In this document: positions 14,361 through 57,745 of the stretch, piece by piece
Layout of the letters: each line of letters starts with the position of its first letter
How positions within the stretch are numbered: the first letter of the stretch is position 1
Assembly (NCBI GenBank): GCA_014058105.1
Contig: JACGCM010002238.1
Location: 1,860,001 to 1,924,000, forward strand
DNA length: 64,000 nt
Origin: Kingdonia uniflora
Lineage: Eukaryota; Streptophyta; Magnoliopsida; Ranunculales; Circaeasteraceae
Direction of reading: 5' to 3'
Program-made: the position numbers and the translations under genes
Notes under the pieces: model-generated
The model's input: only the letters and a program-made list of their open reading frames with translations
Told to the model about the DNA's origin: nothing
The model's database searches: none

Positions 14361-14480
14361 TCACTACTTCATTTTAATATCTCATTTTTTCTATTCCAAA
14401 AGCGAGATTTTCATCTCCATCCAATGTACATCCTTTTCTATTCAATAAAACTTACAAATTTTTATCATCCAATGTGACAT

Positions 14481-15035
14481 CATACCTGTTAAATCAAGGA
14501 TAACACTTGGTTTGGCTGACTCTACTAAATCTCTCCGATTAAGACTAAGGTAATAGTTGTTTTACATCAAAGACTCTACCACACATAAGATAAAGTAAAG
14601 GAAAATCTAGCTTTCATCTACCTTAATATGGTTGTGATATCATACCAGTTAAATCATGGATAACACTTGGTTTGGCTGACTCTATTAAATCTCTGCGATT
14701 AAGACTAGAGTATTACTTGTTTTACATCAAAGACTCTACCAGACATAAGATAAAGCAAAGGTAAAACTAGCTTTCATCTACCTCAATATGGCTGCGACAT
14801 CATACCAGTTAAATCAAGAATAACACTTGGTTTGGTTGATTCTACTAAGTCTCTGCGATTAAGACTAAGGTAATACTTGTTTTACATCAAAAACTCTACC
14901 AGACATAAGATAAAGCAAAGGTAAAACTATCTTTCATCTACCTCAATATGGCAACGACATCATACCAGTTAACTCAAGGATAACACTTGGTTTAGCTGAC
15001 TCAACTTAATCTCTACGATTAAAATAAAGGTTACA
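14481..15035 (+). repeat. B: 160-bp tandem array, about 3.5 copies
   Basis: Copies begin at 14481, 14641, 14801 and 14961 with CATACC(A/T)GTTAA, so the spacing is exactly 160 bp each time. The fourth copy fades after about 75 bp. Copies are about 90% alike by eye. The array lies between the integrase end and the stop of the antisense unit, a position where Tat/Ogre elements are known to carry variable tandem repeats. Confidence 0.95.
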
Positions 15036-20289: not shown

Positions 20290-21838
20290 AGGTTTTTTAC
20301 CCTTATTTATATAATTTTACAACCAATCCCCACAAGTCGTGATATTATCCTATTATCTCGTAACAGAAACCCTAATATCTTGAGAAAAGTTATTTGAACA
20401 TATCTCTCCCTATCGACATTCGTCATTTTCTACTACTCAAAATCAAGCTTGTTTTTTCCAAGTCTAATATTATAGAATGACCTCTCTGAGATCGATTTTT
20501 CATTATGAAATTTCTACAAATTTCCAGCCCCCAGGTCGAATCTTATTTGCCACTGGACACATATTTTTTCATTACAAACAAATTTCTAACAGTTTGATTA
20601 TTACAAATACATAGTATACATTCTAACCTCATACATTTCATTTCATCTAATATTCAAAAGTTTTTGGATCATACAGCTTGATTTCCAGAGTTAGTCTATT
20701 CTATATCAATACGGAATTTGGATAACAAATTTTATTCATCTCAAATCAAGTTACAGGTACTTTACAGATAAAAAGTCTTTCAAGGACTCAAACATCAGGT
20801 ACTTTATAGATAATAAGTTTTTTGAGTGCTTTTATAGCTAACAAGTCTTTCAGGCACTCTAAAATGTCAAATCCTCTAGTTCGTTCTACTTCAGTGATCA
20901 TTCAAGCTAATACAAAGTAGACATTGGAAATAACGAATATCTTCCCTCTCATGAGTTTTGTCGAAGTCTAGATAAACGTCAAATGGAAACTATAAAAGTA
21001 GGAGATTCAGTGCTGGAACCAACTTTTCAAACTGAAGGTCTCCTCAGCGCAAAGCAATGATGGAAGTGCAGAAGCAGACTTCTATTCTCCATCTTCCTCC
21101 TCCACTACCATCGCTGCCTCTCCTGTAGCCACCACCCTCACAGAGTTGGTAGAGATGAAGAGGGCCTAACCTTAGAATCCATTCGAGCGCAAGACTTTAG
21201 CATAATTGCCCTGCAGTTATGCTTATCCTTGCATCTGCCTCCCCAACCTTGTCTTCTGCAAGAATGTAGAGACAAACCCAGCATTGTTTGCCTGTTAAGA
21301 CAACGTGGTAAAACCTCTATCTATAGTAAAACTCTTCCTCAGCTTTAGCCACATATTTTTTGACATTCCTTGATACGTCGGTGGAACAGAAACAGGAGTA
21401 GGTATCTACAAACTCTAATTCCCAAAATTCTTCAACTTCAACCTCTACATTTCAGTAGCAATTCTCTCTTTAAGAACCATTCTACGGGTCTTCACCATCT
21501 TCAACAATTTTAGAAAATATTGTAGCAGAACAAGCGTACTTTACCACAAACAGCGATATAGGTACTATTTCTATAACCCTATATTTATTATGTAAGAACA
21601 TTTCCCCAAACATCATCATTCAATACAGAAAAAACTCTTCAATCCCTAACCATCGCACACATTAATATTTCCATCAATATTCAATACATGCACGTCCCCC
21701 CATAACACGCGTATTTTCCATGCAGTCAAGCACCATTATTACTTCCTTTATTATTCAAATTTCTAACCTGAATACCCATATATCCAAAGATTATTTCTCA
21801 ACCAAAGCCACTCGTGACTTCGGTTGTGAGGGGGCGAT
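20290..21838. other. B: 3' non-coding region up to the polypurine tract
   Basis: No supported gene. Short imperfect direct repeats around 'ggtactttacagataaaaag' and 'aagtctttcaggcactc' occur at 20755-20870. The purine tract GTGAGGGGGCGAT at about 21824-21838 immediately precedes the 3' LTR and fits a polypurine tract priming plus-strand synthesis. Confidence 0.6.
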
Positions 21839-22643
21839 TATAGGGTCATACCCCTCGATCTTACCTAAATTGAGTTGTCTCTAGTTCAAACTACCTCCAT
21901 ATCGGACTCACGAATTCTCCATATGACTTCTCCAATCAACATTTCCACCTACTCTACGAACTGATGAAAAACGTGGGTCAAGCTTAAATAGAAAAACTAA
22001 AATAAGTCAAATATACCTATCTCTCACGAATATAGGGGCCTACCTCTCGATCTTACCTAAATCGAGTTGTCTCTATTTTAAACTACCTCCATATCAGACT
22101 CACGTATTCTCCATATGACTTCTCCAATCAACATTTTCACCTACTCTACGAACTGATGAAAAACGTGGGTCAAGCTCAAATAGAAAAACCTGAATAAGTC
22201 AAATATACCTATCTCTCACGACTCAACAGTTACTCAGTCAACCGCCACTAACTACATTGTTCGGAGAATGTACTTTAGCACGATGAAGAAATGTAGATAA
22301 GGCCTATATAAAGATGAAGTTTAAGAAGAGACAAGACTAGAAAAAGATACGATAAATCACCAAGAAAACTATATTTTCTAGATTCTCAAAACTTTAAATT
22401 TCTTATTCATAAGATCAAGATTTCTAAGTCAAGAGATCACTTGTAATAAGATATCAGCCTCAAGCAATAGAAGTCACTATTACAAAAATCCTCAACTTGA
22501 GGTCATGGTTTTTTACCTATTCAAAGGTTTTCCACGCTAAATCACCTGTGTTATTTCTTGTTTTCTATTTAAATTTTTCACAGGTACATTGGTGTATGAG
22601 CTAATTCCAAGCCACTTCAAGCTTACATAATTAAGCCATTATA
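21839..22643 (+). repeat. B: 3' LTR (805 bp) with 192-bp internal duplication
   Basis: It starts TATAGGGTCATACCCCTCG, whereas the 5' LTR starts with TG, so the terminal dinucleotide is mutated. A second copy of the first 192 bp begins at 22031 (TATAGGGGCCTACC). 613 + 192 = 805, so the LTRs agree exactly in length apart from this duplication. The TATA region is at about 22305. It ends GCCATTATA. Confidence 0.9.
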
Positions 22644-26780: not shown

Positions 26781-26879
26781 CTATTTTATTGGTAATTATT
26801 CCATCTGAGTATGTTGCTGGGTATGGCAACGACAAGGAGCTCAGTGTAATTCACTAGTAGTTGGTACAAGGAAAATAAT

Positions 26880-28075
26880 GTGAGTATGAATTGAAGAATA
26901 GTTTGATTTACGGGGGAATTCTACTATGTATTCCAGAGGGTGAAGACCGTTTGTATTTGATTAGAGAGGCTCATAGTTCTCGGGTGGCAGGTTATTTTAA
27001 GGTTGAGAAGAGTATTTTGAATATGCGGCATTATGTCTATTGGATGAAGATACATGTGAATGTTACTCATGTGCTTCATGGTTGTGTTCTATGCAGCACA
27101 TTGAAGTCTTTCCATTGTACGTTAGGACTCTCCTTACCATTACCAGTACCTAGCCGACCTTGGGTGAGCATTTCGATAAATTTTATGGGTGGTTTGGTCA
27201 TAACCAAGTGTAAGAATGATTATCTATTTGTGGTGGTAGATCGATTCAGCAAGATGATAATACTTATTCCATGCCAGAAGACGATTACAGGGGAATGAGC
27301 AACGCAAGTATTTTTCAGAGACATTTAAAAGTATTTTAGCCTCTCTTCTTCTATTATTTATGATTGAGATAGCCACTTTTTAGGGCATTTTTGGAGATCG
27401 TTATGGGGAATGATGGACACTAAGTTGAAGAGTACCGTATTTCATCTCTAGACTGGTGGGCAAACAGAAGTCGTCAATCGTACTTTGGTTTATTTACTAT
27501 AGGAATTCCATTCTATGCATCCTAAGACTTGGGATGAGAGTTTACTGTATCTTTAGTTTTCTTTAACTAGGCAATTCATGGTTCTACTTTGAAGTCTCAG
27601 TTTAAAGTTTGTCTTGGGTACTTGCCTCAAAGCTTCTTTGATATGGCCTTTTGTCTTGGTGATAAGACGGTGTCTGGGATGGAAGAAAATGAACAAGTTA
27701 AAGATTAGTATTTCATTGAGAGGATAAGCAAGGTTAATGAGGTATTGAAGTACAATTAAAGAAGACTCAAGCAAAGTATAAGGCTCAGCACGATAACCAT
27801 CGGGTTGAGTGTACTTTTTAAGAGAGCAACCTAGTTTGGTTGCATTTGGGTAAGGAACGACAAAAGGGAGAAGGTAAGAAGCTCAAGCCTATCCGTTATA
27901 GTTTGTTTACTATACTTAAGAAAATTAGTGATAACGCATTCCGATTGGATTCGCCACCATTTATGAAGATGTATTCGGTGATTAATGCCGAGCATTTGAA
28001 ACTATTTGAGTCATCTCTCCTAGATGAAGACTCTACAATAAACACTTTCCTACCATTAGTTGATGATTTTTAGAT
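26880..28075 (+). pseudogene. C: integrase with GPY-like C terminus
   Basis: N-terminal zinc-binding domain: LIREAHSSRVAGYFKVEKSI, 'VLHGCVLCSTLKS' (H, H, C, C present). Core start: PWVSISINFMGGL and VVVDRFSKMIILIPCQKT; the second Asp region is degraded; GGQTEVVNRTL carries the Glu. The C terminus at 27840-28073 reads LKPIRYSLFTILKKISDNAF, then 'MKMYSVINAEHLKLF', matching the KLxPRxxGPFxIxxKINDNAY element. Stops throughout. Confidence 0.85.
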
Positions 28076-31014: not shown

Positions 31015-31191
31015 GATAACCCAACTTGGAAAATTTTGAGGCAATTTTGAGGCGAGTAAAATTTCTGGGAAATTCTATGTAAGTCTAACTTAGATTCATG
31101 GCAACATACAAATCATGGATCTGTGGCCTATGAAAGCAGCTTCCTCGGTCAAAGCTTTAAATGCTGAAAACATACTTCGCATACGGATCTA

Positions 31192-31677
31192 GTGAGACCT
31201 ACCACGGTAGATTTAATTAAGCTTTCTACCAGTACCAACAATCAAGGGGATCTACTAGCTATTAAAATTCTAGAGGATGGGTTTAAAAGAGGGTTTGATA
31301 TATACAAATTCAGTCTAATAGGCCGGTTGGATCTAGTAAAGACAAAATTGGCAATTGCAAGAACTGTTGCAATAGAACTATGGAGGATCAAAGGAAGTTG
31401 TCAATTTACACCATTAGGTAAGGGATATTTCACCATCTATCTTGATAATGAAGAAGATAAATTAAAAATTTGGAGAGGGCCGTGGAATGTTAAATCCCAG
31501 TTGACGAGAGTGGTACCCTGGTCAGCAGATTTTGATGTTCATAAGCAAAAAAAAATCACATGCTATGGTTTGGGTGAAATTCCCTGGTTTGGGGAACTAG
31601 TATTGGGAGGAGGATGTGCTAATATATATGGCTATAATGGTAAGAAACCCAATACAAGTAAATCCAAGTACTCTTAG
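31192..31677 (+). pseudogene. LINE ORF1-like protein with DUF4283 domain
   Basis: A 161-codon frame: VAIELWRIKGSCQFTPLGKG, then YFTIYLDNEEDKLKIWRGPW, LTRVVPWSADFDVHKQKKI and GEIPWFGELVLG. This matches DUF4283, the RNA-binding-like N-terminal domain of plant LINE ORF1 proteins (usual pattern FxFxxxxDRxxVLxxGPW...W). The zinc-knuckle segment after it is degraded: at about 31808-31862 the plus strand has KVCTHCKVVGHLVSECRD-like remains. Confidence 0.8.
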
Positions 31678-36480: not shown

Positions 36481-37826
36481 TTTACTCGTCCTGAGTAAAA
36501 TAAAAGAAAACTAGACAATTTAAGCCACTTTTGCAGGTCTCGCGATTACATTTAGCATAAGCAATAAGCCTTTAAGCCCTCAGGTGTCTCTGGTAGATGA
36601 GTGTTGTCTTGTGAAGATTTTTAGTATTTTTACCCACATAAATCTTTAACTTAGTATTTCCTGTATTTCAAACTAATTATTTTGTTGTCTCTGTAACTCT
36701 TGTTAATCCCAAGATATATTGTAGATAGTTCCCAAAAAAGATCTTAGTTCATTTATCAATTTAAGAGGGTTTATAGAAATAATTAGGCAAAACCAATGGG
36801 AAAACAAACTATACTTCAATGACTACCCAATAAGATCCCCCTAAAAGGGTTATATTTCCGAGTATGTGTTGTCACAACTTCAGTATTATCTGCAAAAAGA
36901 TTATTATCCAACTGCTTAACTTCCTCATTATAAAGTTTTTTGTAGGAGAGCATCTTACTCTTTCTATTCGCTTGTATGTTTTTATTAGTTGGATTAGGAA
37001 CACTTATACATTGCTATCACATTTTATAGTAATTTTTCTGTATCTAATTGGTCTACATTCCATACTAGTTAGTTCAGGGTGCCAGGATTCGGAGTCCCTT
37101 CATGACCTAGACTTCAGGTTCACACCATTATTTACTATCTTTATACTTTGATAGTTTTTCTTCTATGTTTTTTTTTTGTATCATACTGTATCATTTTCTA
37201 ATCCATTTTTCAACTATTGTAGGTAGTAAGTTCATTACTCACTTTGAACTAGTTAAGTATTCTCTAATAAATCCCTTGGACAAATATTGTTGTTGATGCG
37301 AAGTGTAATTTCTTTCAAGAAATTGTTAACTTTATTTTTGCGAACGTCACTAATAAGTAATAATCATTATAGTATCATAAGCTTAATTATTTTTACTTTC
37401 AATTTTGGCGTATAATCCATAATCTCGTTAAGTAGCCAGAACTCTAAGGTTCCTTTAATTTTCCTAACTACTCAATCTAGAGGATTATTTAGAGCTATTT
37501 GCAATCATAGATTAATTAACTTTACATTACTAGTTATACATAGTGTACTGAGCTTTCTATAAAAACTTGAAAATAGTTTCCCACCCCCAAACTTATAATA
37601 AACATTGTCCTTAATGATGAATAGATAAATAAGTGCAATACTAAGTAAAATAACTTGGTGGAAGTAAACTCTGCTAATATGTCGCCAATAAGATGCAATG
37701 AACAAGAAGCTGAAACGAAAAATCTATACTAACTACAAAATATTTATATGTACTAGACAAGTACGACACTATTTCATGCAAAATGAAATAAAGACATACT
37801 CGAGAAAAAAGTAAAGTGTACGTCAG
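36481..37826 (-). other. F: 3' untranslated region
   Basis: AT-rich with no supported gene. It lies between the stop of F's last reading frame (37827) and the polypurine tract. Athila-type elements have long 3' non-coding regions of this kind. Confidence 0.6.
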
Positions 37827-37857
37827 CTACTCATAGTCGTGATTTGGGGTACCCATG
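37827..37857 (-). pseudogene. F: last codons of an ORF cut by the CACTA element
   Basis: When the CACTA element and one CCA copy are removed, the minus frame from 48775 runs on without a break: acidic NDDEDEEPMEEPMKD, EDEPVG, then MGTPNHDYE and the stop TAG at 37827-37829. The protein is unrecognised. Its position, between integrase and 3' LTR, is that of the extra ORF of Athila elements. Confidence 0.7.
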
Positions 37858-37860
37858 CCA
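37858..37860. repeat. CACTA TSD, CCA (left); right copy 48665-48667
   Basis: A 3-bp duplication as expected for En/Spm transposons. Both copies are CCA. Confidence 0.8.
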
Positions 37861-38420
37861 CACTAGACCAAAATGAGTAAAAAGCGGCGGGGTAGGTCAA
37901 TCATTATTTTGCTAAAGCGACATCCATTTTAGTCGAAAAAGCGTCGTTCTTTTTGTAGTAGTCTTATGTTATCGACTTGAAAAACATCGTAAATTAACGA
38001 CTGAGGGGCGGGTCAAAGCATCCGTCGTATTTACTAAAATTTATAACCCTTTTAACAGTCGTTTTAGTTGCAATAGAATGACACAATTCTTAGTCGCAAC
38101 AACCAATGTAGTTCATATTCTTTACGACTATAAAATCCATTAATATATGCATCGCTAACTTAAACGTCGGAAATAATAATCGCAGTAGATAATTTTTAAA
38201 ATATCCAGTGACACATTTATAGATTGTTTTATACATCGTAAAAAATGCATCATAAATAACAGTCACAACATCAGTCATATATAATAATTACATTTTAAGA
38301 CATGGAAATTAGTCATTTTATGTCACAAATATAAACGTCCCAATTTTTGTCACATTAACAGTCATTTTGTTTCAATATACAGCAATCATATCAATCGGGT
38401 CATAATCACAATAGTCATTA
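37861..38420. repeat. CACTA left terminal and subterminal region
   Basis: The terminal repeat is followed by many short GTCG/CGAC units (for example GCGTCGTTC, ACGACTGAG, CCGTCGTA, AGTCGTTTTAGTTGC, AGTCGCAACAACC, ACGTCGG) in both orientations. Such clusters bind the element's TNPA-type protein in known En/Spm elements. Confidence 0.8.
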
Positions 38421-38617
38421 TAAAATTTATTAACTAAAAACAATTAATATAAAAAACAACATATTTCAATAACAAGAACAAGTTTTATTATAAATTAAAA
38501 GGTTATTTCCTAATATCAATGTCAAACTTTATTTCAAGAACAATAAAATAAAAAGATGACGTTTACTCGAAATAGGTAAGACTCTTATACCTTACAACAA
38601 TTTTACCCGAAGAAATG

Positions 38618-38812
38618 TCACCTAGAGTACCCCCCTTCCATAAATAATTGCACATCATCGAGAATAACCACATCTACTAGGACACGATAAAACTCTTCAG
38701 GAGCTACCCCAGATAACTAAATACTTTTGTAAGCAATTGTTCTGCCATACATATCTTTCATAATGCAGTTTCTACCTCTCGCTCCATCAGGTGGCGGTGA
38801 ATCTTCTATTGC
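38618..38812 (-). pseudogene. CACTA Tnp1-like gene, last exon (PF03017-like)
   Basis: An acceptor at 38813 (TTCTTTTGTAG) opens a frame: DSPPPDGARGRNCIMKDMYG then RTIAYKSI, stop, LSGVAPEEFYRVLVDVVILD and DVQLFMEGG, ending TGA at 38618. The YRVLVDVVI block and preceding GR-IAxG pattern fit the Tnp1/En/Spm C-terminal domain of CACTA genes. One in-frame TAG. It is the most 3' exon of the element's transcript. Confidence 0.75.
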
Positions 38813-38814
38813 CT

Positions 38815-39865
38815 ACAAAAGAATAAAATGTGATCGTGAGTACATGGTAGAAGAACGTTTTAAACAAATAACAAGTTGTCTCAACAACATTGAAACTCAT
38901 AAGGCTTGATTGAATATTTATGTATGAAAAGCTATAATTTATTTTCTATAAAAAGTTTAAGTTTCTTTCTCCATCTCTATTAATTGGGCATTCTTAATTG
39001 ATAGTGTGTGATGCTTGTAATCTTTTTTCCTTCCCGAAAAACTTTACATTAATTATATTTGAGGAATAGTAGGCCTCAGCAGACCACAATAGATTAGACA
39101 CACAAGTGACATAATAATACCTATCACACAACAAAGTATTTAAAGCCATTCACATTGATTCCATGCTTTATTCATACATTTCAACCCCACATACGAAGAA
39201 AATATGAATCACCTATATCAGACAAGTAGGACACACTATATAACGATATTGGACATCTTCTTGGGCTTATATAAACACAATAGATGTTCTTTTGGATCAA
39301 ATAACTGTGTCTGGAAACCTTGGGCTTACATAACAAAAAGGGTTGTTTAAATTACTATGGTTGGACCAGTTATAACCCATATAAAACCATTACACACCTT
39401 GTACATAGTCCTCATCATATACCAGTATTTTGTACATAATTTTTTATCCAATTAATCCTTATGAGATAGTCCATCACACATTCTAGTACTATCTTTAGCT
39501 TTTGATAATTTATAGGGAAATTTCCAAAATACTCTCTTCTTGTCATATTTTTCTTCAACCTTTTCTCATAACTTCTAAATGTACTTATCTTGATCAAGCT
39601 GAGATTGATAATATCATTTTTGGCATTTATAAGAATTGGAATTTTTTGTACTATTATTCTGGCATTCTGCTAAAGAAAATGTTGATTATTATTTTCTAGA
39701 TGTTATATAAATAGAAATGTTTTGCATGGAGTAAACTAGTCATATATAGATGGGCAGGGATTATGTATATCTAATATGATTCCTAGCTTTTAAGCAGTCC
39801 ACGTTGTTTACATTTTGTGATGTCAGATGCAAGTAATGTAAAGGTCAAATCAAGAAAATAACTAA
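38815..39865. other. Intron-like sequence between CACTA exons
   Basis: AT-rich, no supported exon. It lies between the hydrolase exon ending 39867 and the transposon exon beginning 38812. Confidence 0.5.
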
Positions 39866-39866
39866 C

Positions 39867-40925
39867 CGTTGTAAGTTGGTTGCTGATAATTTGGTCACCC
39901 TCGCCCCAGATAATTAGCGTCTCTTGCTTTATCTATGTAACAAAAGGTAGCCATAGATCAAAACAAACATCAGGATTAGCTAAGGACTATAATTTCCAAT
40001 TGTCTGTATGTGAACAAAACAATGCCAGCTTTCTTCCCTAATCTCATGGTATACGAAGTCTTTACTCTAAATAAGGCTCGAGTTTTTACATTCTAACATA
40101 CCAGCCTAAATTTTTGCGATATAGCACGACTTTCATTATCTTCTAACATTATCTTATGTCAATGTAAGGGTAGATCACAATATAATGTATGAAATGTAAG
40201 GATTATTGATAACAATATTGAAATATCATATCAAATGCCTATTGATCTATACCTGTAATTTATGATACATATTGCAACATTTGGAGCCAATTTTGAAAAA
40301 GGCGTACTAATAACCATTATGTACCTGCTTTATCTGTTCACCAACATTATAGCCTCCTCTGACCATAAAATTAATAGTTGCATCTTCCCACCAAGGCAAC
40401 AAGCAATGGAGGCGACCCACCTAGATACAAAAACAAGAAGTAAACACCATCAGATACTACCTTTACTTTGCAAAATCAAACAATCCTTACAATATTAATA
40501 GACATTATAAAACCCAGCGTAAATGTAGCATGTTAAATGAGATTTCTACTACATAAGTTAAGAAAGAGAAGAGATTATCACATTAGCCCACTCTATGCTG
40601 GTAGTGAATGAAATACTATTGAAGGCCAAAAAGTTTGCATATAATCACAGTGGAATGCTATTTAATAAAGAAACCTGATCCAAACAAAGAAGTTTAGGTA
40701 CATAAGAAAAGAATTACAGAATTGATGGGAGCTCTACATATGTTCATCAATGCTATAAATTGGGTATTTTAAAGGTGTTCCTTGCTACTTTTCTAGATAC
40801 CATATGAATACCAGTCCAGGAAGAAAGACACTTACCCCAGTATATGCTACTGCTCTAGGCAATGTGGATAACTTTCCGGTCCCTTCTATATAGAAACTTG
40901 CACCAATCAAGACCATCTTCGAGAC
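39867..40925 (-). pseudogene. Captured alpha/beta hydrolase, three consecutive exons
   Basis: Exons 40925-40836 (SKMVLIGASFYIEGTGKLST), 40420-40325 (RLHCLLPWWEDATINFMVRG then GYNVGEQIKQ) and 39932-39867 (ETLIIWGEGDQIISNQL) are each bounded by canonical AG/GT sites, are phase 0 and contain no stops (90, 96 and 66 bp). They match the C-terminal half of plant alpha/beta-hydrolase fold proteins: TLIIWGEGD holds the catalytic-acid Asp region. The nucleophile exon and the final His exon are absent. A gene fragment carried by the transposon; no enzyme could result. Confidence 0.85.
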
Positions 40926-41253
40926 CTAAAAAATTACATGAAATATTCAAGACATTACATCATATTCAAATTATTCCCTAATATATTCCCTAATAGGCAC
41001 AAGTGTTATAGTGGAACTACTGAAGATGTTTTTATGGCTTATAATGAGATGTAAAGCAAAGAAAAACATGGACTAAGAATCATTGGTGTTTATTTTCAAT
41101 GTTATCGTCTGATATATACTATCATTTGAAAATATGCGTAGTATAGTCTGTTGAATGTATTTTATTTTTCTTGTTCAGTAAAATCCAAATTCTACTAAAC
41201 ATTAAATTAGTATAAGTTGTATAAATAAGAAGTATAAGAGAAAGAAAAAAAAC

Positions 41254-41544
41254 CTGAGAGAAAGAGGCATTGCTTGGAAAAGCATGGTGTATATTTATTC
41301 CATGTCGACTCTCGCATGATTTAAATGCTCCAATCCTTTCTTCAAGTCTTCTACGTTTACTAGCTTCCACCTTTAGCTTTTCTTTAAATTCTTGTCACAC
41401 TGAAACAACCTCATCTGCAAGCTGGCTATTCTTAGATTTTTCCCGTTCAATGGCCTTCCTCAAAGGTGTTGTAACTTGAACACTTGTCTTATTAATATAA
41501 CCACTAAAGCCTCTCACATGCCCATTTCCATCTTCTCCATATTC
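41254..41544 (-). pseudogene. CACTA Tnp1-like gene, coiled-coil exon
   Basis: From acceptor 41545 to donor at 41253: GHVRGFSGYINKTSVQV, TPLRKAIEREKSKNSQLADE, then after one stop EFKEKLKVEASKRRRLEERI and GAFKSCESRHG. The GRVRGxGxxxTxxxL motif followed by a coiled coil is characteristic of the plant transposase (Ptta/En/Spm) family. One TGA at 'VSV*QEF'. Confidence 0.75.
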
Positions 41545-41890
41545 CTTTTAGACATGAAAACAAAATTTGATAAGAACGGAATTAAAGTAAGACATATCAC
41601 AAATACCTAGAACATTAAATTATTTACAAAATAGATACGCATTGAATAACTTATATACCAAGTGTAGATAAACAAGTTAACAAGTGTTTTATGTAGGTTT
41701 TAAAGTTCATGGATAGGAGTTGTCTCCAACTTTTATCTTATCCATGGGGTTCAGTCCCTCGCTTACCTTTCAAAAGTAACTTATAGAGTATTATGATGTA
41801 TTGACATGACTATACACGTAACACTGGAATCTAATCTTGCACAAATATGAACATGAATTTACACTCGGCAAGTACTGAAAGGGGTCAATA

Positions 41891-44450
41891 TCACGTACCA
41901 AAAATAGCAACAATAATTGGTATAAACCATTGACTTGCAAGGAGGACTTGCATATCAAACTGCAGGAAGCACAAAGATAAAACTCTGTTAGATAGGTGCA
42001 CATCTTAAAATATATAGTGAAAAATCCAAATATCGAAAACAATGAATTTTACCTCATCTTTCTTGAGTAAACCAAGAACGTCCATTGTATCATTGTACCT
42101 ACCGCTGGTGGTGAAGGAGTTCCTTTCATTTTTCTTGGGTAATCCGTCGTACCCAAATCTGGAGCGTTCCATGGTAGGATGCCAACCTCTTCCCATATCT
42201 ATACTCGGAATTCCTGGCAATCTTCTGCTTCAGCCTATTAGTTGCAAAATGTAACCTTTCATTCCCCATATTCATATCTAGAATCACATCGATAGATCAA
42301 TTCTTTGCCTAAAACCATAGAATAAGTAGAAAAACTTACATCAATTTGGCGAGATGGTAGCTGGTCGTCATCCCGATAAAGGGGCTCTTTCTGTCTAACT
42401 GAATCTGAGAAGAGTACTAGATCGCTAATATTCCTGCTGGTGAAATCTAATATCTTCTTAAGAAGCCAAAAACAGTTGGTAAACCATACGGCTGCTGTCA
42501 AGACAGTTGGAGTCACCGTACATGGAAATACGTCCATCACCCAACTCCACGAGGCCAAGAACAGGAGAGTCCGCCTAAATATTCCGTGTTAGCTGAGGAT
42601 CTTACATAGTAAAATTAGGGGTATGACCAGTCAGACTTTAGAGGTTTTTTTAATATAAATATAAAAAATTATTAACTAGAGTTTTACATGCTAACCTTCA
42701 TTAAACCAGATGTTTGCAGTACATTCTGAGGGGCACCACTTTCCGAACTATCCAAAAATAGAAAGCTATGTACAAACTCGCCCTCTGGGAGCTTCACTAT
42801 ATCTATTTCAGAAGCATAACGACTCTGTTCACCATCAATAAATAAATCCCCATACAAAATTTTATCCCCAAAAGCATTCCCAAATGAAGACAAAAGATCG
42901 TTCAATGCATGGATATTTCTGCCCCCTGTAATTGGCGTCCACCAGCTCCTAGTGTTATCATTGTAAAATCTCATCTTCACCATTGTATCTACATTGTACC
43001 ATTCGGCAAACACCACCAAACCCAATCTAGCATTAAGTATATCATCTATCAGCTTTTCAACCTCTTCCTGGAAATACTCATCCTCGAGGTCCACCATCAG
43101 GAGTGTCCCATACTGCCGAGCATCAAAGCATGTAAGGGGTGAGCCAAGTGTTTTCACATAGTATCCTGAGTCTCTCAACATGTTAAACATGAAGTAAAAA
43201 TTTGTATGCAAGTGATCCCCATGCCAGTCAAGAACGTCATTACGAACCTCTAAAGAGTCACGTGGTATATACCCTGGTGGAAATTTGATATTGTAATATT
43301 GATCCCTGAGTATCCTTTTTGCTCTTGGTAGAGTTGGAACCGCCTTTAGCTTTAACTAAAGGGCACATGTACATGTCCTTCATTAGCCTTTCTCTCCGGG
43401 TGGTGACGGGCTAAATATATTCCCTATCTCATTGCCTTCAATCAATCTTGAAAATTGTGCACCTTCATCCTTGATTTGCATATGTAGAGCGAGATAACCA
43501 AGGAAACCCATTCCATTGATCTTGGAGTAGGAGAAGTGAATGATGAGAATATTTCCCTTGTTATTGTTAGGGTGCCATGTAGGCGGGCCTTCAACATAGC
43601 CAAGGAAACCCATTCCATTGAGTATGGGGGCATTAAGAATGACTGGCATTGCACCTGCATAGAGTGGCTGGCAGGAGAAGGGCCAGGAATAAAGATGGTC
43701 TGTATAGTCGAGAATACTGGGAAACATGCTTGCCTGTGGACGGTACCTTTTCAGAATCTCGTATGACTCTAAGCTTGCATTCATAAATGAATCAAAAATA
43801 AAATAAGTTTTATTTCAGTAAAATAGCTGAAAAAGTAAGTTATTTCCATATAGGTCAAAGAACTAACAGGTCAACTCTACCCGCACCCTGTTCATACATA
43901 TTAGGACCTGAAAGCTTTGCAACCCCCTTAACCAACGCTTGTTTCACGCTTGCCAGATTTAGAATATCCTTTTGCTTATTTTCGGGAATGACATTAACAA
44001 GCAAGCATACAACACTTGCAAGTACTGGACTTGCCACACTTGTTCCTGAGAGGTTTTTGCAACCTGTACAAATCTTTGATCCCATGATTTCTCGCCCATA
44101 TACAACAATATCAGATTTCATGTGACCGTAGCTGCATGGGAAAAACAATGCAATAACTAACAATACATATTTTACGTCTTAATTAAGAAATGGTGCAATG
44201 AGATCAACTTTATTAATAGTTCTGATCAGTGAATCAAACTTCTCCATACTTGCTGCTAAAATGGTACCAAAACCTAGTGATAGCAAATGGCAAACAAGGA
44301 ATGAAGGGGAACAGGTAAAAGGTAAAGGCAAAGTTTTTTTCTTACCCATGAGGCATTTCCCAAGTACTCATGCCGTGTGAAGAGAATGAAGCTATACGAT
44401 CATTGTAATCAATACCACCAATACCAATCACATCACTTTGATCCACAAAC
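41891..44450 (-). pseudogene. Captured site-1 protease (SBT6.1/MBTPS1-like), 3' part
   Basis: Minus-strand exons: 44450-44346 ([20 protein letters not shown]), 44131-43868 (GSKICTGCKNLSGTSVASPV: the serine-nucleophile block is intact), 43773-42696 (ESYEILKRYRPQASMF ... YAGAMPVILNAPILNGMGFL ... LGLVVFAEWYNVDTMVKMRF ... DGEQSRYAS), 42574-42053 (YGDSNCLDSSRMV, DSVRQKEPLYRDDDQLPSRQ) and 41959-41891 with a membrane segment (QWFIPIIVAIFG). This is a plant Golgi site-1 protease, which cleaves membrane transcription factors. Defects: frameshift near 43383, in-frame TAG near 43340, frameshifts in the 42.5 and 42.3 kb region. Lacks signal, prodomain, and the Asp and His catalytic exons. Confidence 0.92.
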
Positions 44451-44634
44451 CTACATTATATATCTTTCCAAAGATGAAAGAATGTAATGTAGTAACTCTG
44501 CTGTATACTTAACGTTTATTTTTTTTTCATCACAAAATTTGTGTTTGGAAAAAAAAACATGTTTTGTAGTCGGCAGAGATGCTAGGATTTTCAGATACAT
44601 ATAGGATCATAAACATAAGTATCACGTGGCTCAC

Positions 44635-46266
44635 CTGCATAAGGAGCATCCGCCAACTTCTGCTGTCTCTTGGGTTTTCACGATGCGAATACACCTTTTT
44701 GATATCTGCTCTATAGGATCAACTCCCGATACCCTCCCGGCTACTTTTGCATTTTCATTAGTCACGCAAGACCTATCTGCAAATGCATTTTGGCAATATG
44801 CACAGTACCATTTACCACGTAGAATGCTTGATTGACCTACACACTCTGTATTAGGAAAGTGAGAATTTGATGAAAACAACATTGCATAAATCATAACACA
44901 AGCTACAAGAAACAAAATGGGGGCATCTTTAATAATTTACCTGAGTCGAATAAACTAAAACAATTTTACAATAAAATCAGCATTGTAAACCGGGAGCTAA
45001 ACAACAAAACTATCAAACATGGGATTTTCTAGTGAAATAAACAGGACAATTTTTTTCTTCTTTAGTGTCTGCGTCATTTCAATGGGTTTCACCTATGGGA
45101 TGGTAACCCAAATGGTATCTCCCTCTAAGACTTGAGGTTTGACATTAAAAGCCAACTCAAATTTCAAGTTCTACAACTGCTTATGGCAATCCAGATGAAG
45201 TATAACTTATTTTCTTTCTTGGTTTTCTTTATCTTTGTATGCCAACACAGATTGAACTTTTTTAGGTACATTGACTTGTAGAACATCTGATAATAGGGTT
45301 AATAGTCCTTTTATCCCTACCAACCCCAAAGTCACTGCCTAAGGTAAGGCTATGATGTTAAGAAAGTTACAACCCTCAAAATCATAAGAAAATAACCCTT
45401 AGGAAAGCTTATTCACTTAACCTTAGTGATCCATAAGTTGGTGTAAGACATAAGCTGTGAGTTTTTGGTTCTTACGGAGACCAAATTTGATGGGCTTTGA
45501 CTATCACTTATAATCTTAACCTTGTACAAGAGCTCATCATCAATTGACCACTAGAGCAATAAGATAGCAGAAAAGGTGGTAACGAATCATGGATACCGAT
45601 AGGGGAGATAGATATTCACCTTTGTGAAAAGCCCTAGGACATCTATCACAAAGAAAAAGATTTCCAAAGTTTGCATAGATGACACAGAGGTCACCGTTTT
45701 CATTTGCTGAAAGTTTCTAGCCTTTAGATAAAGGTAATGACAATTCATGAAGACGTACCCCATTCGATGTGAAAATGTGTAGGTAGCTGGCAACAAACAA
45801 GCATATGTCAAAGTAAGAGAAAACATGAATTTTTGTTGTTAAAATATGACCACCATATTATACAACAATAACTTACGGTTTACGACGTGGAGCATAACCA
45901 GCATGAGCTTCAAACTGCGAGGGGCTGATCTGCTCATTAATGGCGAACAAAATTACATCTTGTATACACAAACGATAATCACTATTAGTCCTTTGAATGG
46001 AATTGCAGTACCTCACTATTGCAACATCGACAAAATATTCCAATTTCCTTTTTATAGCCCTCGAGCACTTTCTGTCAAATAAATAATTAAAGGCAACATT
46101 AACGCAGGAGCCCCAAAGTAGCTTAACCCAAAAATAGTAGTGATAAAAAAGGAAACTCTTTTACATCATCGTAAATGTAACAACCTGTCCACGAGCATAA
46201 TACGCTAGTTCAGCTCCATCAGGTAAGCCATCTTTCTCAAAAACCGATCTATGAAGTCACAAATCC
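44635..46266 (-). pseudogene. Captured PHD-finger protein with TDBD domain, five exons
   Basis: Exons with canonical splice sites: 46266-46185 (RDL-stop-LHRSVFEK, DGLPDGAELAYYARGQ), 46071-46012 (KVLEGYKKEIGIFCRCCNSE), 45929-45877 (ISPSQFEAHAGYAPRRKP), 45786-45620 (YLHIFTSNGVRLHELSLPLS, then CPRAFHK) and 44845-44635 (RGKWYCAYCQNAFADRSCVT ... VDPIEQISKRCIRIVKT). They match the TDBD (Jas/TPL-binding-like) region and first PHD finger of the plant IDM1-like chromatin proteins with PHD and acyltransferase domains. The fragment has two stops, and one PHD zinc ligand is Tyr instead of Cys. It interrupts the site-1 protease fragment. Confidence 0.9.
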
Positions 46267-46456
46267 CTAGAAGAGAAGACATACAACTATCCGGTTAATT
46301 GACTTCTCCAAATGAAAAGGAAAGAATAGCTCTTGAAAAATTACAGACAAATTTCACTTCCTCATAAAAGAAATGAAACTATCTACAAGTAAAATCAAAT
46401 AAAGAAATAAAAGCCCACTTTCTAGTTAGCTTTCCATGACTCCTATTATGCCCCGC

Positions 46457-46782
46457 AATCATTTCCAATAGCCGAAACCATAATAATATTATTAGCTGTC
46501 AGCTCCCAAACCTGGAAACAATTGAAGCCAAATACCAATCATCAAAATTGTTTCTTGTGGGGGTCATTGATGAAAGATTCAAAAAGAAATCTGCAATTGA
46601 TAAATCATGCATACACACACACAAGAATGTACTGAAATTGGATCTACACTAATTAGAAGTAAAAAATTAAAGCAATAGTTGTAGAACAAATACACTTACC
46701 TTTTCTACGAATGGAAGATCCAAGTAATCAGGTCCACCTATACTTAAATTCAACACATCCATGTGGGTTGCCATAGCAATTT
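46457..46782 (-). pseudogene. Captured site-1 protease, 5' part (two exons)
   Basis: Exon 46782-46700 (IAMATHMDVLNLSIGGPDYL, DLPFVEK|GTAAG) and exon 46511-46457 (VWELTANNIIMVSAIGND). The Asn of the oxyanion hole region (GND) is the last conserved point; after it the sequence no longer matches. About a dozen codons further in the normal gene, homology resumes at 44450 (DQSDVIG). The gap is filled by PHD exons. Confidence 0.9.
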
Positions 46783-46789
46783 CTAAATT

Positions 46790-48440
46790 CAAAAGAAGGC
46801 TGTATGGAAATTTAGCTATTCTAAAATGTCTCCTAATGAAACAAAAAAACTAATATCCATAACAAACAGAGAGTACTTAAAAGTGTAGTTCAATTCTCGC
46901 AAATATAAAGTTAAACTGAATAATCACCTCTAGGATTATCAAAAGGCAACAAATTAAAACAAATTAAGACCCAAACAAAACCGGATTATCTCCAAATTGC
47001 ACCTTTAGATAAGATCAACTGCTAAATTAGATATCAATGTTATAGAAATTCATAATAAACAAAAATAAAACAAAGAACAAAGGAATGTGTGAGAGAGAGA
47101 AAAAACTTGTGATTGGAGAAGATGGGAGAGAGGGACATCAATAAAGTTGCAAGGTTTATTTCCTTCATATCAAATATATCCATAATGTCAAAATTAGCAA
47201 CTAAGTACATAATACACAGTAAAATATGAATTAGTTTAAATTGGATATAGCAGTTAAAAGGGGTTGTCAAAGACTATGGTTTATTTCAGATTCTAAGTCA
47301 GCCATTAAGACCTTTATAGCTAAGACTCTCAATCTTCTACAATATTCTTCTCCATCTTCTAAAAATTATTCGTTTAAGAACATTGCAGCCCCCAACAAAT
47401 AATACAACCGTTTTACTCAATTCTACTTAGCTCTTAACGCTTTTATACCAAAATACTAATACTAATAAAATAGTTACCCATATGTAGAATCACAACAACC
47501 ATATAACAAAACTCATTGTAATTTGAAATCATTAGCAATATTAAAAGACAAACCCTATAAATCTTACCTCTTGCAACAAAGACGACGAGATTTATATAGT
47601 AAGTCTGAAATCTATAACAACAAGATTATGATTAAGATATCAGACATTAAAAAAATGAAGAATAAGAAACTCTAGAAATTTATCACAAAAAAGTCCAAAT
47701 ACTAACAAAAATAGGAAAATCCCTAAATTCTGTATTCAAGGTCAAAAAATTAATATACTTTTTTTTTACTTTAAGTAAAGAAAAAATTAGCAAACAAAAA
47801 ATACCATAACAATGCATACCTCTTTATAATTTTAAAATTCCATGTAATTTCACACTGTTTCCAAAATGAATCAGGAATCTTTCAACTGCAATACATCAGA
47901 TAAGATAGAAAGGAAATCCATAAAAAGATCTAAATCCCTAAAACTTTAGTGAAATTAAAATTTTGAAGGGAAAAATTAGATGATTCTTCTGTCAAGTACA
48001 AACCTTATTGCAGCAAATTCCCAAAACAAAAGATCGATCTTCATCTTCTTCATGAAGAAGAAAAAAGGAGGGGAGATATGAGAGATGAATATATAACTAA
48101 AATTGGTGTTTAGAGTGTTTGGAGAATTAAAATTCAATTGGAAATTATAGATTTGCAGAGCTTAAACGCTTAATTGAAATTGGATTATGGCTCAGTTGTT
48201 GGAGAGGAAAAATCGATTGGGATTAAGGCTTTTAGGTGCTTGATTTATGTGGGGAAATTTGTTTTAGATAAGTCGATAAGAAGATTTAGGGATTTAGCTA
48301 GAGATTTACAAATTTCAAACTCTTGATGGAGTCGACTGTGGGAAAGAAAGAGAGAGGGCGTTGGCGGGAAGTTTGGAGAATTTAGAGAATTTGGGCAGGC
48401 TCTTCAATTTTATTTTTAATTAAGATGGATTAGAGTAGAT
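46790..48440 (-). other. CACTA 5' region: exon-like segments, no product recognised
   Basis: On the minus strand a short ATG frame (about 48063-48006, ending ...AATAAG|GTTTGT), a segment after TTGCAG near 47885 ending GAG|GTATGC, and another ending GAG|GTAAGA near 47570 look like small spliced leader exons. None encodes anything recognisable. They may be the 5' leader of the element's transcript or of a captured gene. Confidence 0.35.
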
Positions 48441-48664
48441 TAAGTTTAATTAATCAAAACGACAATATAAACCGTCTAAATTGGATTTGTTTTCCAACGA
48501 AATACGCAGTCGCATTTTTTATGACGCAAATATGAGGAAATAAAGAATAAGCGACGGTGGCAATAAGATTATGACTGTTAACGGATGTCCAAATTTTCTA
48601 ACACACCTGCCTGGTCATAAATGTATATCCAAAAGTGTCAATATTTACTTATTTTGGCCTAGTG
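48441..48664. repeat. CACTA right terminal and subterminal region
   Basis: The complement of CACTAGGCCAAAATAAGTAA ends at 48664, preceded by ACGAC, CCGTC, AGTCGCA, TGACGCAA and GCGACGGTGG units as in the left end. Confidence 0.8.
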
Positions 48665-49326
48665 CCAACTGGCTCGTCCTCGTCAATCACCTCTAGGTTA
48701 TCCTCGTCAAAGTCCTTCATTGGCTCCTCCATAGGCTCCTCATCCTCGTCATCATTATGTATGCTCACAATCTACATGTAAAAAACCATCATGCTTGAGG
48801 TCTAGAATCTAACAAGGGATGGCCAAGAAATCTCCACGGTGCACGATCCATACATTATGTATGCAAGTATCCAACTCTTGTGAAATGTCCAAAGGTTCCA
48901 AAAGAACCTTGTCTGCATATCGAACCGCCAACGGGTCAATATATCAAATAATTAAAGTTACAAATGTTGGTAAATTGTAAATAATATCTTTTAATTTTGG
49001 CATTGCTGAATGAGCATTTGTAGCACACTAGTAAATGTTACCGCCAATGCAATTTATAATATCATATCTAAGGGTATCCTGATGAAAATTACATATTAAT
49101 TTTAAACCATTAATTTCAATACTGGTCAGACGGCCTAATGCCTGTACATTACCATAAAATCAATACAAAATAGCTAACTGGTTAGAAAAGAAACTGAAAA
49201 TCGGGAGACTATCCTCATCCTATATGGTCATCTCTCAAAATGAAAAATCTTTAAGATAGTCCTCACGGCTAGAAGAAAGTCTCTGATCGAAAAAATATGG
49301 AACTCAAGATACTCCGGCGATTGCTC
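48665..49326 (-). pseudogene. F: extra ORF region between integrase and 3' LTR
   Basis: The minus strand carries open stretches IGRLTSIEINGLKLICNFHQ, LRYDIINCIGGNIY, MPKLKDIIYNLPTFV and DPLAVRYADKVLLEPLDISQ with few stops. The acidic frame NDDEDEEPMEEPMKDF (48755-48700) continues across the CACTA insertion to the stop at 37827. No family is recognised. The position corresponds to the env-like or unknown ORF of Athila elements. Confidence 0.5.
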
Positions 49327-53049: not shown

Positions 53050-54150
53050 AGCCCATGGCGATGGACTCTTCCCCCACTCCTCGCCACCCCAACATGTACA
53101 TAAAAATAGATGCACAACCCTCTGATCAAAATAATATAGCTATAAGCACGTTCAATAGAGATTGGACACCGCCTCTCGTGGAGCTGGTCGATAAGATTAA
53201 CCTTGACGGCCCCACGGGAACAACCTATATTAGTTTCTTATTCGCAGGTAACGAGCGCTCGGACCTTATCACCACCCTTCAGCAGTACAAAGACATCTTC
53301 GCCTGGCCGTTCAACGAAATCCCAGGCATAGATCCCGACGTGGCATGTCTCTACTTGTACATTAATGACAAAGCTACCCCCATCAAGCAGAAACCACGAC
53401 GAACAATCCCGAAGTTACGGGGAGACATAAACGATGAGATCCAAAAGTTACTATTGGTTAGATTTATCAGACCCGTAGACTGCCCATGATGGGTAGCGAA
53501 TGTGGTGGCCATCCCTAAGTAGAATGGTAAAGCGCGGGTCTATATTGATTTTACTGACCTCAATAGGCATTATCCGAAGGATAGCTTCCCTATGCCCCTC
53601 GTTACCAGACTAGTGGATTCCACAGCCAACCACGAGCGGTTATCATTCATGGACGATTATTCTGGGTACAACCAAATCCCTTTGACAGCCGAGGACCAAG
53701 AGTCCACCTCCTTTACCACCGGGCATAACTTATATTATTATACCGTCATGCCTTTCGGCCTAAAGAACACGGGATCTACTTACCAGCGCCTAGTCACTTC
53801 CATGTTCGGAGACCAGTTGGGGAAGACAATAGAAGTTTATATTGATGACATACTCATAAAAAGTAGGCTTCACAGGGACCATCTAGTCGACCTCGAGACA
53901 GTCTTCACAAAGCTGCGGCACTACAGAATGCGACTGAACTCTAAAAAGTATAACTTTGGTCTCTCCTCATGGAAGTTCCTAGGGCGCATAGTCACTCAAT
54001 GAGGAATAGAGGTCGACCCCGACTAGATCCGTGCCCTCGCCTATATGCCCTCCCCACAAACCCTAAAACAAGTTCAAGCCCTCGTGGGAAAGATTGTCGC
54101 CCTCATACGCTTTATTTATAAAGCCACCTACAAATACCGTCCACTATTCT
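53050..54150 (+). pseudogene. I: reverse transcriptase
   Basis: TPPLVELVDKINLDGPTG, YKDIFAWPFNEIPGIDPDVA, PIKQKPRRTIPKLRGDINDE, then after a stop WVANVVAIPK, ARVYIDFTDLNRHYPKDSFP, MDDYSGYNQIPLTAEDQEST, VMPFGLKNTGSTYQRLVTSM and EVYIDDILIKS. YIDD is intact. The thumb (RMRLNSKKYNFGLSSWKFLG) ends near 54000. Two in-frame stops (near 53488 and 53520) and one at 54001 separate the segments. The best preserved RT in the window. Confidence 0.88.
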
Positions 54151-56401: not shown

Positions 56402-56807
56402 TACTGGGGGGGCGTTCTTGAAGTAGGACATCCTTGCAACTACGTGAGTCATTTTTTGAAGTAAAAACGTACTCCCCATACTGGGGGCACTTTTAAAGTA
56501 GGATGTCCTTACTCACAACTACGTGAGTCATTTTTTGAATTAAAAATACATTCCCCATACTGGAGGCGCCCTTGAAGAAGGACGTCCTCGCCACTACGTG
56601 AGTCATTTTTTAAAGTAAAGGCGTACTCCCCATACTAGGGGCCTTCTTGAAGTAGGACATCCTCACAACTACGTGAGTCATTTTTTGAAGTAAAAAAAGT
56701 ACTCCCCATACTGGGAGCATTCTTGAAGAAGGACGTCCTTGCCACTACGTGAGTCATTTTCTGAAATAAAAAGATACTCCCCATACTGGGGGCGTTCTTA
56801 AACTAAA
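56402..56807 (+). repeat. I: tandem array 1, 75-79-bp unit, about 5 copies
   Basis: The marker TACGTGAGTCATTTTTT occurs at 56441, 56520, 56595, 56670 and 56746, giving spacings of 79, 75, 75 and 76. Each unit contains ACTCCCCATACTGGGGGC and CTTGAAGTAGGACATCC. A sixth copy is partial. Confidence 0.92.
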
Positions 56808-56809
56808 CG

Positions 56810-57745
56810 ACCCCTATCAGGACTACTAAAAAAGTTATTGGGAATTTTGCCCTTAACTATCTCTATAAGGTCGCAATAGCGACTACGACTACATAGTCTA
56901 ACGAGGACTACTAGAAAGGTTGTTGGGAGCTTTGCCTTTAACTATCTGTATAAGTTTGTAATAGCGACTACGACTACATAGTCCAACGAAGACTACTAAA
57001 AAGGTTGTTGGGAACTTCGCTCTTAGCTGTCTCTAAAGTTATTGGGAACTTTGCCCTTAACTGTCTCTATAAGGTTGCAATTACGACTACAAGTACATAG
57101 ATCAACGAGGACTACAAAAGAGGTTGTTGGGAAGTTGGCCCTTAACCGTCTCCAATAACAACTACGACTACATAGTCCAACGAGGGCTACTAAAACGGTT
57201 GTTAGGATGTTTTCCCTTAACAGTCTTTATAAGGTCACAATAATGACTACGAGTACATAGTCCAACGAGGACTACAAAAAAGGTTGCTGGAAACTTCGCC
57301 CTTAGCTGTCTCTAATAATTACTATGACTACCTCGTCCAACGAGGACTACTAAAAAAGTTGTTGGGAATTTTTCCCTTACATGTCTTTATAAGGTCCTAA
57401 TAACGACTACAACTGCAACTACATAGTCCAGCGAGGACCACTAAAAAGATTGTTGGGAACTTTTCCCTTAACTATCTCTATAAACGAGTACGACTACATA
57501 GTCCAGCAAGGACTTCTTAAAAGATTATTGGGAACTTTACCCTTAGCTGTCTCTATAAGGTCGTAATAACAAGTACAACTACATCGTCCAACGAGGACAA
57601 CTAATAAATTTGTTGGGAACTTTGCCCTTAACTGTCTCTATAAGGTCGCAATAACGACTACGACTACATAGTCCAACGAGGACTACTAAAAATGTTGTTG
57701 GGAACTTTGTCCTTAACTGTTTCTATATGGTCGTAATAATAAAAT
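56810..57745 (+). repeat. I: tandem array 2, about 85-bp unit, 10-11 copies
   Basis: The marker ACATAGTCCAACGAGGACTA recurs at about 56891, 56976, 57095, 57170, 57255, 57330, 57421, 57496, 57581 and 57666. Spacing is mainly 85 or 75, with one of 119 and one of 91. Each unit includes GTTGTTGGGAACTTTGCCCT and TCTCTATAAGGTCG. Unrelated to array 1 and to B's 160-bp array. Confidence 0.92.

Follow-up and report, generated by a model that had tools for sequence, protein, structure and literature searches.

A probable Pack-CACTA transposon of Kingdonia uniflora holding exons of three host genes

CACTA transposons that carry pieces of host genes are established in soybean, morning glory, rice and maize, and transduplication is treated as a known mechanism in a 2026 review (PMC13317346). 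Here we describe an element of this kind in a stretch of 64,000 nt from Kingdonia uniflora (Ranunculales; contig JACGCM010002238.1, positions 1,860,001 to 1,924,000), which is called the window and in which all coordinates are given. Between the ends of the element lie pieces of a site-1 protease gene, an IDM1-like gene and an alpha/beta hydrolase gene together with two exons of a small gene belonging to the element itself. We assign it, with a probability of about 0.9, to the Pack-CACTA (transduplication) type of non-autonomous CACTA transposons, in the genome of a member of Ranunculales. As an example it is new and well preserved; the kind is not new.

The soybean element Tgm-Express1 contains five captured genes, with RNAs from the F3H promoter (Zabala and Vodkin 2007, PMC1947982), and like the present element it holds, between CACTA ends, fragments of exons and introns from several host genes that are unrelated to each other, usable as cassette exons. 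Unlike Tgm-Express1, which has a size of 5.7 kb and a demonstrated RNA, the element described here is 10.8 kb long, is known from DNA alone, has one capture nested in another, and has kept part of its own small gene. The Tpn1 family of Japanese morning glory, for which chimeric transcripts of one element are described (PMC5105172, citing Kawasaki and Nitasaka 2004), is likewise non-autonomous; its members contain captured host genes and have conserved ends, target duplications of 3 bp and subterminal repeats. It belongs to a different host lineage and has 339 mapped copies against the one copy examined here. The Pack-TYPE elements of Arabidopsis, rice and maize, of which the maize Pack-CACTA elements contain the most distinct loci (PMC8903248), are also non-autonomous DNA transposons holding coding DNA of several loci; they are defined genome-wide, and their proposed origin from neighbouring insertions does not explain the junction of the IDM1-like piece within an exon that is found here. 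In CACTA elements of Chenopodium host fragments are located upstream of the element's own coding region (PMC8978399), as in the present case, but these fragments are short (e.g. 80 bp of AP2) and a transposase-associated domain is retained. A limited literature search gave no report of CACTA gene capture in Kingdonia; the papers it matched concern plastids and phylogeny, judged by their titles and the beginnings of their abstracts.

Ends and class of the element

Positions 37861–48664 (10,804 bp) constitute a CACTA-type element, with the left end CACTAGACCAAAATGAGTAA starting at 37861 on the plus strand and the right end CACTAGGCCAAAATAAGTAA starting at 48664 on the minus strand (Table 1). With up to three mismatches the end motif has only these two matches in the 64 kb, where chance would give 0.09, and two matches were not reached in any of 100 shuffles; the 20-bp inverted ends are identical in 18 positions, and the trinucleotide CCA is present at both flanks. 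The subterminal repeats were judged from sequence only, as the count of the short motif GTCG/CGAC. The left 400 bp contain 10 copies, with a mean of 1.27 and a maximum of 5 in 300 shuffles, and the right 400 bp contain 6, with a mean of 1.16 and a maximum of 6, the latter count thus being equalled at least once by chance. In the 10,004-bp interior, where the ratio of observed to expected CpG (CpG o/e) is 0.45, the motif is found 13 times against a shuffle mean of 33. Among the sliding 400-bp windows over the 64 kb, element ends included, 18 of 636 reach 6 copies and 3 of 636 reach 10. Near-identical CACTA ends, a CCA duplication and GTCG-rich subterminal zones had all been called in an original prediction made from the letters of the window, and are borne out, with the reservation on the right zone just given.

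Inverted ends starting with CACTA, a 3-bp target duplication and subterminal repeats at both ends are thus present as in the CACTA (En/Spm) class, and host gene fragments lie between the ends as in Pack-CACTA elements. Autonomous members of En/Spm encode a DDE transposase (TnpD/Tnp2) and have an accessory gene of the Tnp1/TnpA type. No transposase domain was detected in the 40 open reading frames (ORFs) scanned of the 184 listed for the element, which fits a non-autonomous element, and 20 ORFs on both strands of the remaining stretches gave no convincing Pfam match to further captured genes. The end motif has no match in viral contigs, which is uninformative for a plant element.

Table 1. Features of the element and their positions in the window. 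S1P, site-1 protease exons; IDM, IDM1-like exons; HYD, alpha/beta-hydrolase exons.
Feature	Position	Strand	Basis
Target-site duplication CCA, left	37858–37860		read directly
Terminal inverted repeat, left (CACTA end)	37861–37880	+	18/20 identity to right end
Subterminal CpG/GTCG-rich zone, left	37861–38260		10 GTCG/CGAC in 400 bp, CpG o/e 1.84
TNP_b, Tnp1-like C-terminal exon; one in-frame TAG, frameshift near end	38569–38812	-	tblastn with K. uniflora P0241/P0242/P0246, 69–79%; no Pfam match
HYD_4	39867–39932	-	P0244 residues 271–292, 91%
HYD_3	40325–40420	-	P0244 residues 239–271, 88%
HYD_2; one in-frame TGA	40582–40674	-	within 66% match to P0244 196–239 reaching into intron
HYD_1	40836–40925	-	P0244 residues 178–211, 82%
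TNP_a, Tnp1-like middle exon; one in-frame TGA	41254–41544	-	K. uniflora P0241, P0243, P0257, 77–87%; no Pfam match
S1P_7, C-terminal hydrophobic stretch	41899–41959	-	tblastn with P0001
S1P_6; two frameshifts, one stop	42053–42574	-	PF23090 2.2e-9 for its first part
S1P_5; three stops, 26-nt internally copied patch	42696–43768	-	PF23090 2.3e-100
S1P_4, with Ser motif GTSVASP; donor shifted 1 nt	43864–44131	-	Peptidase_S8 8.6e-5
S1P_3; 5' part missing at IDM1 junction	44346–44443	-	tblastn
IDM_6	44635–44845	-	P0122 896–968, 90%
IDM_5, PHD; Tyr where P0122 has Cys, one in-frame TAG	45620–45786	-	PHD E 9.4e-4, below cut-off
IDM_4	45877–45929	-	homology
IDM_3, TDBD region judged against P0122	46012–46071	-	homology
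IDM_2; one in-frame TGA	46185–46266	-	homology to P0122
IDM_1; 5' part missing, starts in S1P_2 with 2-nt overlap	46419–46459	-	P0122 764–777, 14/14 identical
S1P_2; cut by IDM1 piece	46458–46511	-	P0001 residues 359–377
S1P_1, first captured exon; also in K. uniflora GIB67_009720	46700–46782	-	P0001 and P0257
Subterminal CpG/GTCG-rich zone, right	48265–48664		6 GTCG/CGAC in 400 bp, CpG o/e 1.18
Terminal inverted repeat, right	48645–48664	-	motif search of 64 kb
Target-site duplication CCA, right	48665–48667		read directly

The captured pieces and their relatives

All three pieces are unspliced and on the minus strand, and since the introns are retained the capture took place at the DNA level. 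The captures are nested, with the IDM1-like piece inside an exon of the protease and the hydrolase piece inside an intron of the Tnp1-like gene. The site-1 protease piece comprises seven whole or partial exons and its identity is certain, with a match to PF23090 (2.3e-100) and to the human S1P chain 8uwc (1.3e-70). Compared with a site-1 protease of Aquilegia (P0001, 1090 residues), which served as reference, it extends from the intron before IAMATHMDVLNL to the C-terminal hydrophobic stretch, corresponding to residues 334–1062 approximately. The motifs DTG (P0001 residue 255) and GHGTFVAG (285) are outside the element and GTSVASP (450) is inside; we take these as the catalytic Asp, His and Ser sites respectively. 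In S1P_5 the 26 nt at 43494–43519 are a copy, identical in 25 positions, of 43596–43621 located 102 bp away, and occupy the position where 79 of 79 homologs have W-P-W. Such a patch might be a mark of templated break repair.

The IDM1-like piece has six exons and corresponds to residues 764–968 of the 1250 in the K. uniflora IDM1-like protein GIB67_018089 (P0122), that is the TDBD and the first PHD without the C-terminal IDM1_C domain. The identity to this protein is 89% as listed and 91.1% over 203 residues in our own alignment, and 65–74% to other Ranunculales among the matches listed. At 46458/46457 the protease reading GND is followed by the IDM1-like IAGHNRSHGKLTRK, the nucleotides AT being common to both, and when reading continues in the frame of the protease, TAA is met as the fourth codon past this junction. 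Eleven protease codons (33 bp; GPLYGTLNNPA in P0001) are absent, the protease sequence continuing from DQSDVIG in S1P_3. As the following exon of P0122 was not found, the IDM1-like piece appears to end within the intron that follows IDM_6. Neither inverted nor CACTA ends were seen at the junctions between the two pieces, and a nested transposon as carrier of the IDM1-like piece was therefore rejected; a junction located inside an exon may instead be a sign of templated break repair. As a side observation, the Populus alba protein D5086_029467 (P0121, 1423 aa) scores 873 bits against a 219-residue region of the IDM1 query, about twice the next match, which is explained by four tandem copies of the segment with 51–58% identity; the model may be a fusion, or the genes may form a tandem array.

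The VTE7-like alpha/beta hydrolase piece consists of four exons and covers residues 178–292 of the 377 in the K. uniflora hydrolase GIB67_009533 (P0244), with 88.6% identity over 114 residues. The GPSLG motif at residue 159, presumably catalytic, is outside the piece. The exons are located in the intron between TNP_a and TNP_b, whose counterparts are contiguous in the K. uniflora proteins P0241 and P0242. Exons of a site-1 protease, an IDM1-like PHD/TDBD protein and an alpha/beta hydrolase had been predicted on the minus strand, and all were recovered by homology, with the refinements that the protease exons are not contiguous but split by the IDM1-like piece, and that the hydrolase exons are four. 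None of the pieces contains a complete catalytic set, and judged from the motifs none should be able to act as an enzyme alone.

TNP_a and TNP_b would be what is left of a gene of the element itself. Among the best 120 of 198 matches there are five small proteins of K. uniflora that resemble one of these exons or both, and two of the five match Transposase_24, with E-values of 0.022 and 0.15 that are below the cut-off. The gene thus weakly resembles Tnp1: the predicted two exons are there, as exons of a small multicopy protein, and the name Tnp1-like rests on weak evidence. One of the matching proteins, GIB67_009720 (P0257, 170 aa), begins with MDVLNLSIGGPHYYLDLPFIEK, corresponding to S1P_1, directly followed by EYGEDGNGHVRGF, corresponding to TNP_a, which suggests that the gene finder has joined these two exons. 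It is 86% identical to S1P_1 over 22 residues and 87% to TNP_a over 77, and, with the window coming from K. uniflora, would be another copy, suggesting that a protease capture upstream of TNP_a is common to at least two elements. In residues 99–170 of this model a frame-shifted part is followed by some 50 residues without a convincing match in the element or in Pfam, which are possibly another captured piece.

The protein searches covered about 5.8 billion proteins. For two of the three pieces, the IDM1-like and the hydrolase, the nearest relatives are annotated K. uniflora genes (P0122 and P0244), and for the protease the closest among the best 120 of 838 matches is that of Aquilegia with 70% identity. 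By these relatives the window would most likely be placed in K. uniflora or a very close relative. In the trees the IDM1 copy pairs with K. uniflora (support 0.99), and the hydrolase copy forms a clade with two K. uniflora hydrolases (0.95; with P0244 alone 0.79). The protease copy groups with Stephania, Ranunculus, Coptis and Aquilegia (0.97), Macleaya and Papaver being outside this group. All three copies thus fall among Ranunculales, and a horizontal origin of the pieces is unsupported. The branch of the copy is longer than the median of the homologs for the protease (0.331 and 0.080) and the hydrolase (0.115 and 0.065). The predicted capture of pieces of unrelated host genes by a CACTA element is accordingly supported by the retained introns, the intact ends, the K. 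uniflora relatives and GIB67_009720.

Decay, transcription and the route of capture

All 34 internal splice sites of the 19 exons are AG/GT, so that the statement in the original prediction that nearly all sites fit holds. The boundaries were set at the AG/GT best fitting the homology, and the donor at 43864/43863 is apparently displaced by a 1-nt deletion; for these reasons the intact sites were dropped as evidence of selection. At a neutral divergence of 0.04–0.06 all 34 would remain intact with a probability of 0.06–0.015, which seems mildly unusual. The sites are not by themselves evidence of use, because a capture this young would keep most of them by default. The three pieces share the orientation of the element's own Tnp1-like gene, and by chance three pieces would all point the same way in 1 of 8 cases. 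Splice fit and orientation had been offered as grounds for one long chimeric transcript; such a transcript would be plausible by the precedent of Tgm-Express1.

The sequence of the present copy contradicts a chimeric protein product, because the junction from the protease to the IDM1-like piece is out of frame and there are nine stops as well as frameshifts. Three of the in-frame stops are in S1P_5, one in S1P_6, two in the IDM1-like piece and one each in HYD_2, TNP_a and TNP_b, that is seven in captured pieces and two in Tnp1-like exons. The join of S1P_7 to TNP_a is also out of frame, the joins of TNP_a, HYD_1–4 and TNP_b are all of phase 0, and when the 19 exons are joined the three reading frames have 72, 61 and 54 stops. 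Decay was measured at sites at least 98% conserved among the homologs (79 for the protease, 115 for IDM1 and 100 for the hydrolase), stops excluded. At these sites 47 of 357 residues are changed in the protease (13.2%), 7 of 74 in the IDM1-like piece (9.5%) and 3 of 38 in the hydrolase (7.9%). When the homologs were left out one at a time, their medians were 0.003, 0 and 0 and their maxima 0.025, 0.054 and 0.147, respectively. The value of the copy is reached by 0 of 79 protease and 0 of 115 IDM1 homologs, and by 2 of 100 hydrolases, so that the evidence is weaker for the hydrolase. We conclude that no constraint is visible on the captured pieces. Among single-step changes at conserved sites 28 of 52 are C-to-T or G-to-A, which was not used as a methylation footprint; such an excess is also the usual mutation bias of plants.

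Several observations weigh against the reading as a captured set of host genes in a Pack-CACTA element. It is based on one DNA copy, that of the window, and GIB67_009720 is a gene prediction only. The ORFs of TNP_a and TNP_b have no Pfam match at E-values up to 1. No K. uniflora site-1 protease is present among the best 120 of 838 protein matches; the parent gene may be unannotated, fragmented or diverged. The branch of the IDM1 copy (0.108) is hardly above the homolog median of 0.100, and the decay of the hydrolase rests on three sites, with the two homologs mentioned at or above the copy. The highest decay, in the protease, fits a protease captured first, but by Fisher tests the pieces do not differ significantly in decay (p 0.45 and 0.45), and such an order is tentative.

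From these data the following history can be proposed. The ancestral element would have carried a Tnp1-like gene, and the 3' two thirds of a site-1 protease gene would have been taken up upstream of TNP_a, a step that should be shared with another locus according to the K. uniflora gene model. The four-exon hydrolase piece may have been taken into the intron after TNP_a. The IDM1-like piece of about 2 kb would have entered the protease copy later, or might have been in the protease already at its capture, and its entry would have occurred at a break that removed 33 bp of the exon, probably by break repair templated by another locus. The element would have been moved by a transposase supplied elsewhere. 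Its pieces should be passengers that encode no working product; with transcription of the element from the right end or from outside, they could serve as cassette exons in splicing.

Instead of template-switching break repair, two nearby elements might have excised as one together with the intervening DNA, a route put forward for Pack-CACTA in Arabidopsis and also applied to the Pack-TYPE elements of rice and maize (PMC8903248). It could account for the whole protease piece and keeps some probability, but is on balance unlikely, as the IDM1-like piece is within a protease exon, replaces 33 bp there and has no CACTA end at either junction; the copied patch of 26 nt also favours templated repair. 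A more ambitious proposal is that the junctions record the capture itself, with a template-switching insertion of the IDM1-like piece at a break in a protease exon captured before (33 bp lost, a 2-nt overlap, and the 26-nt patch elsewhere) and an ancestral in-frame fusion of Tnp1-like, hydrolase and Tnp1-like sequence that arose when the hydrolase entered a phase-0 intron. This combination is tentative, and we think it rather improbable as a whole; if true, less decayed sister copies in Kingdonia would show the capture steps singly.

The common orientation and the kept splice sites might also be due to the pieces being a source of trans-acting small RNAs that silence the parent genes. For plants, captured genes have been suggested to lead to epigenetic conflict (cited in PMC8978399), and the IDM1 copy is about 91% like the nearest K. 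uniflora protein. No long hairpin is found among the inverted repeats listed in the element, the longest arms being 28 nt with 71% identity, and nothing here separates such silencing from ordinary silencing of transposable elements, so that we consider this explanation improbable. A working chimeric gene, with a promoter near the right end, a spliced mRNA and a fused protein under selection, would agree with the canonical internal splice sites, with the phase-0 joins of TNP_a, HYD_1–4 and TNP_b, which once may have allowed a Tnp1-hydrolase-Tnp1 fusion in frame, and with the spliced chimeric RNAs described for Tgm-Express1 (PMC1947982). An open frame under selection was not found, and a functional chimera was rejected for the present copy on the stops, the two out-of-frame joins and the frameshifts given above and on conserved sites altered as without constraint; its probability is very small. 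Least credible is an old cluster of unrelated pseudogene pieces between chance CACTA-like ends, which would suit a lone DNA copy but has against it the two inverted 20-bp matches with 0.09 expected, the matching CCA, the clustered subterminal motifs and a gene model with the same exon fusion.

Surroundings and significance

When the element and one CCA are removed, the flanks 37700–37857 and 48665–48900 join in frame on the minus strand (EVIDEDEPVGMGTPNHDYE, then a stop), and the insertion may thus be located near the 3' end of a candidate coding exon; the 40-aa flank ORF has no Pfam match. Around the element there are decayed pieces of long terminal repeat retrotransposons at 1581–2906 (-), 11946–12368 (+), 26879–27295 (+) and 53523–53999 (+), and the domains found in such pieces are gag (1.2e-10), reverse transcriptase (3.2e-6, just below the cut-off, and 8.2e-25) and integrase zinc-binding (1e-7). 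The ORF at 31168–31674 (+) contains a DUF4283 domain (8.4e-9), which is frequent in plant LINE-like elements. The GC skew is strongly negative at 14–22 kb (to -0.35) and strongly positive at 24–34 kb (to +0.28), with a switch near 22–24 kb, and tandem arrays are located at 14476–15022 (period 160), 21835–22221 (period 192) and 56408–57739 (period about 75–160 bp).

The element by itself leaves knowledge of function unchanged. It extends multi-gene capture by CACTA transposons to an early-diverging eudicot order, and the nested junction inside an exon together with a gene model sharing the first step makes the order and mechanism of capture testable across sister copies in one genome.

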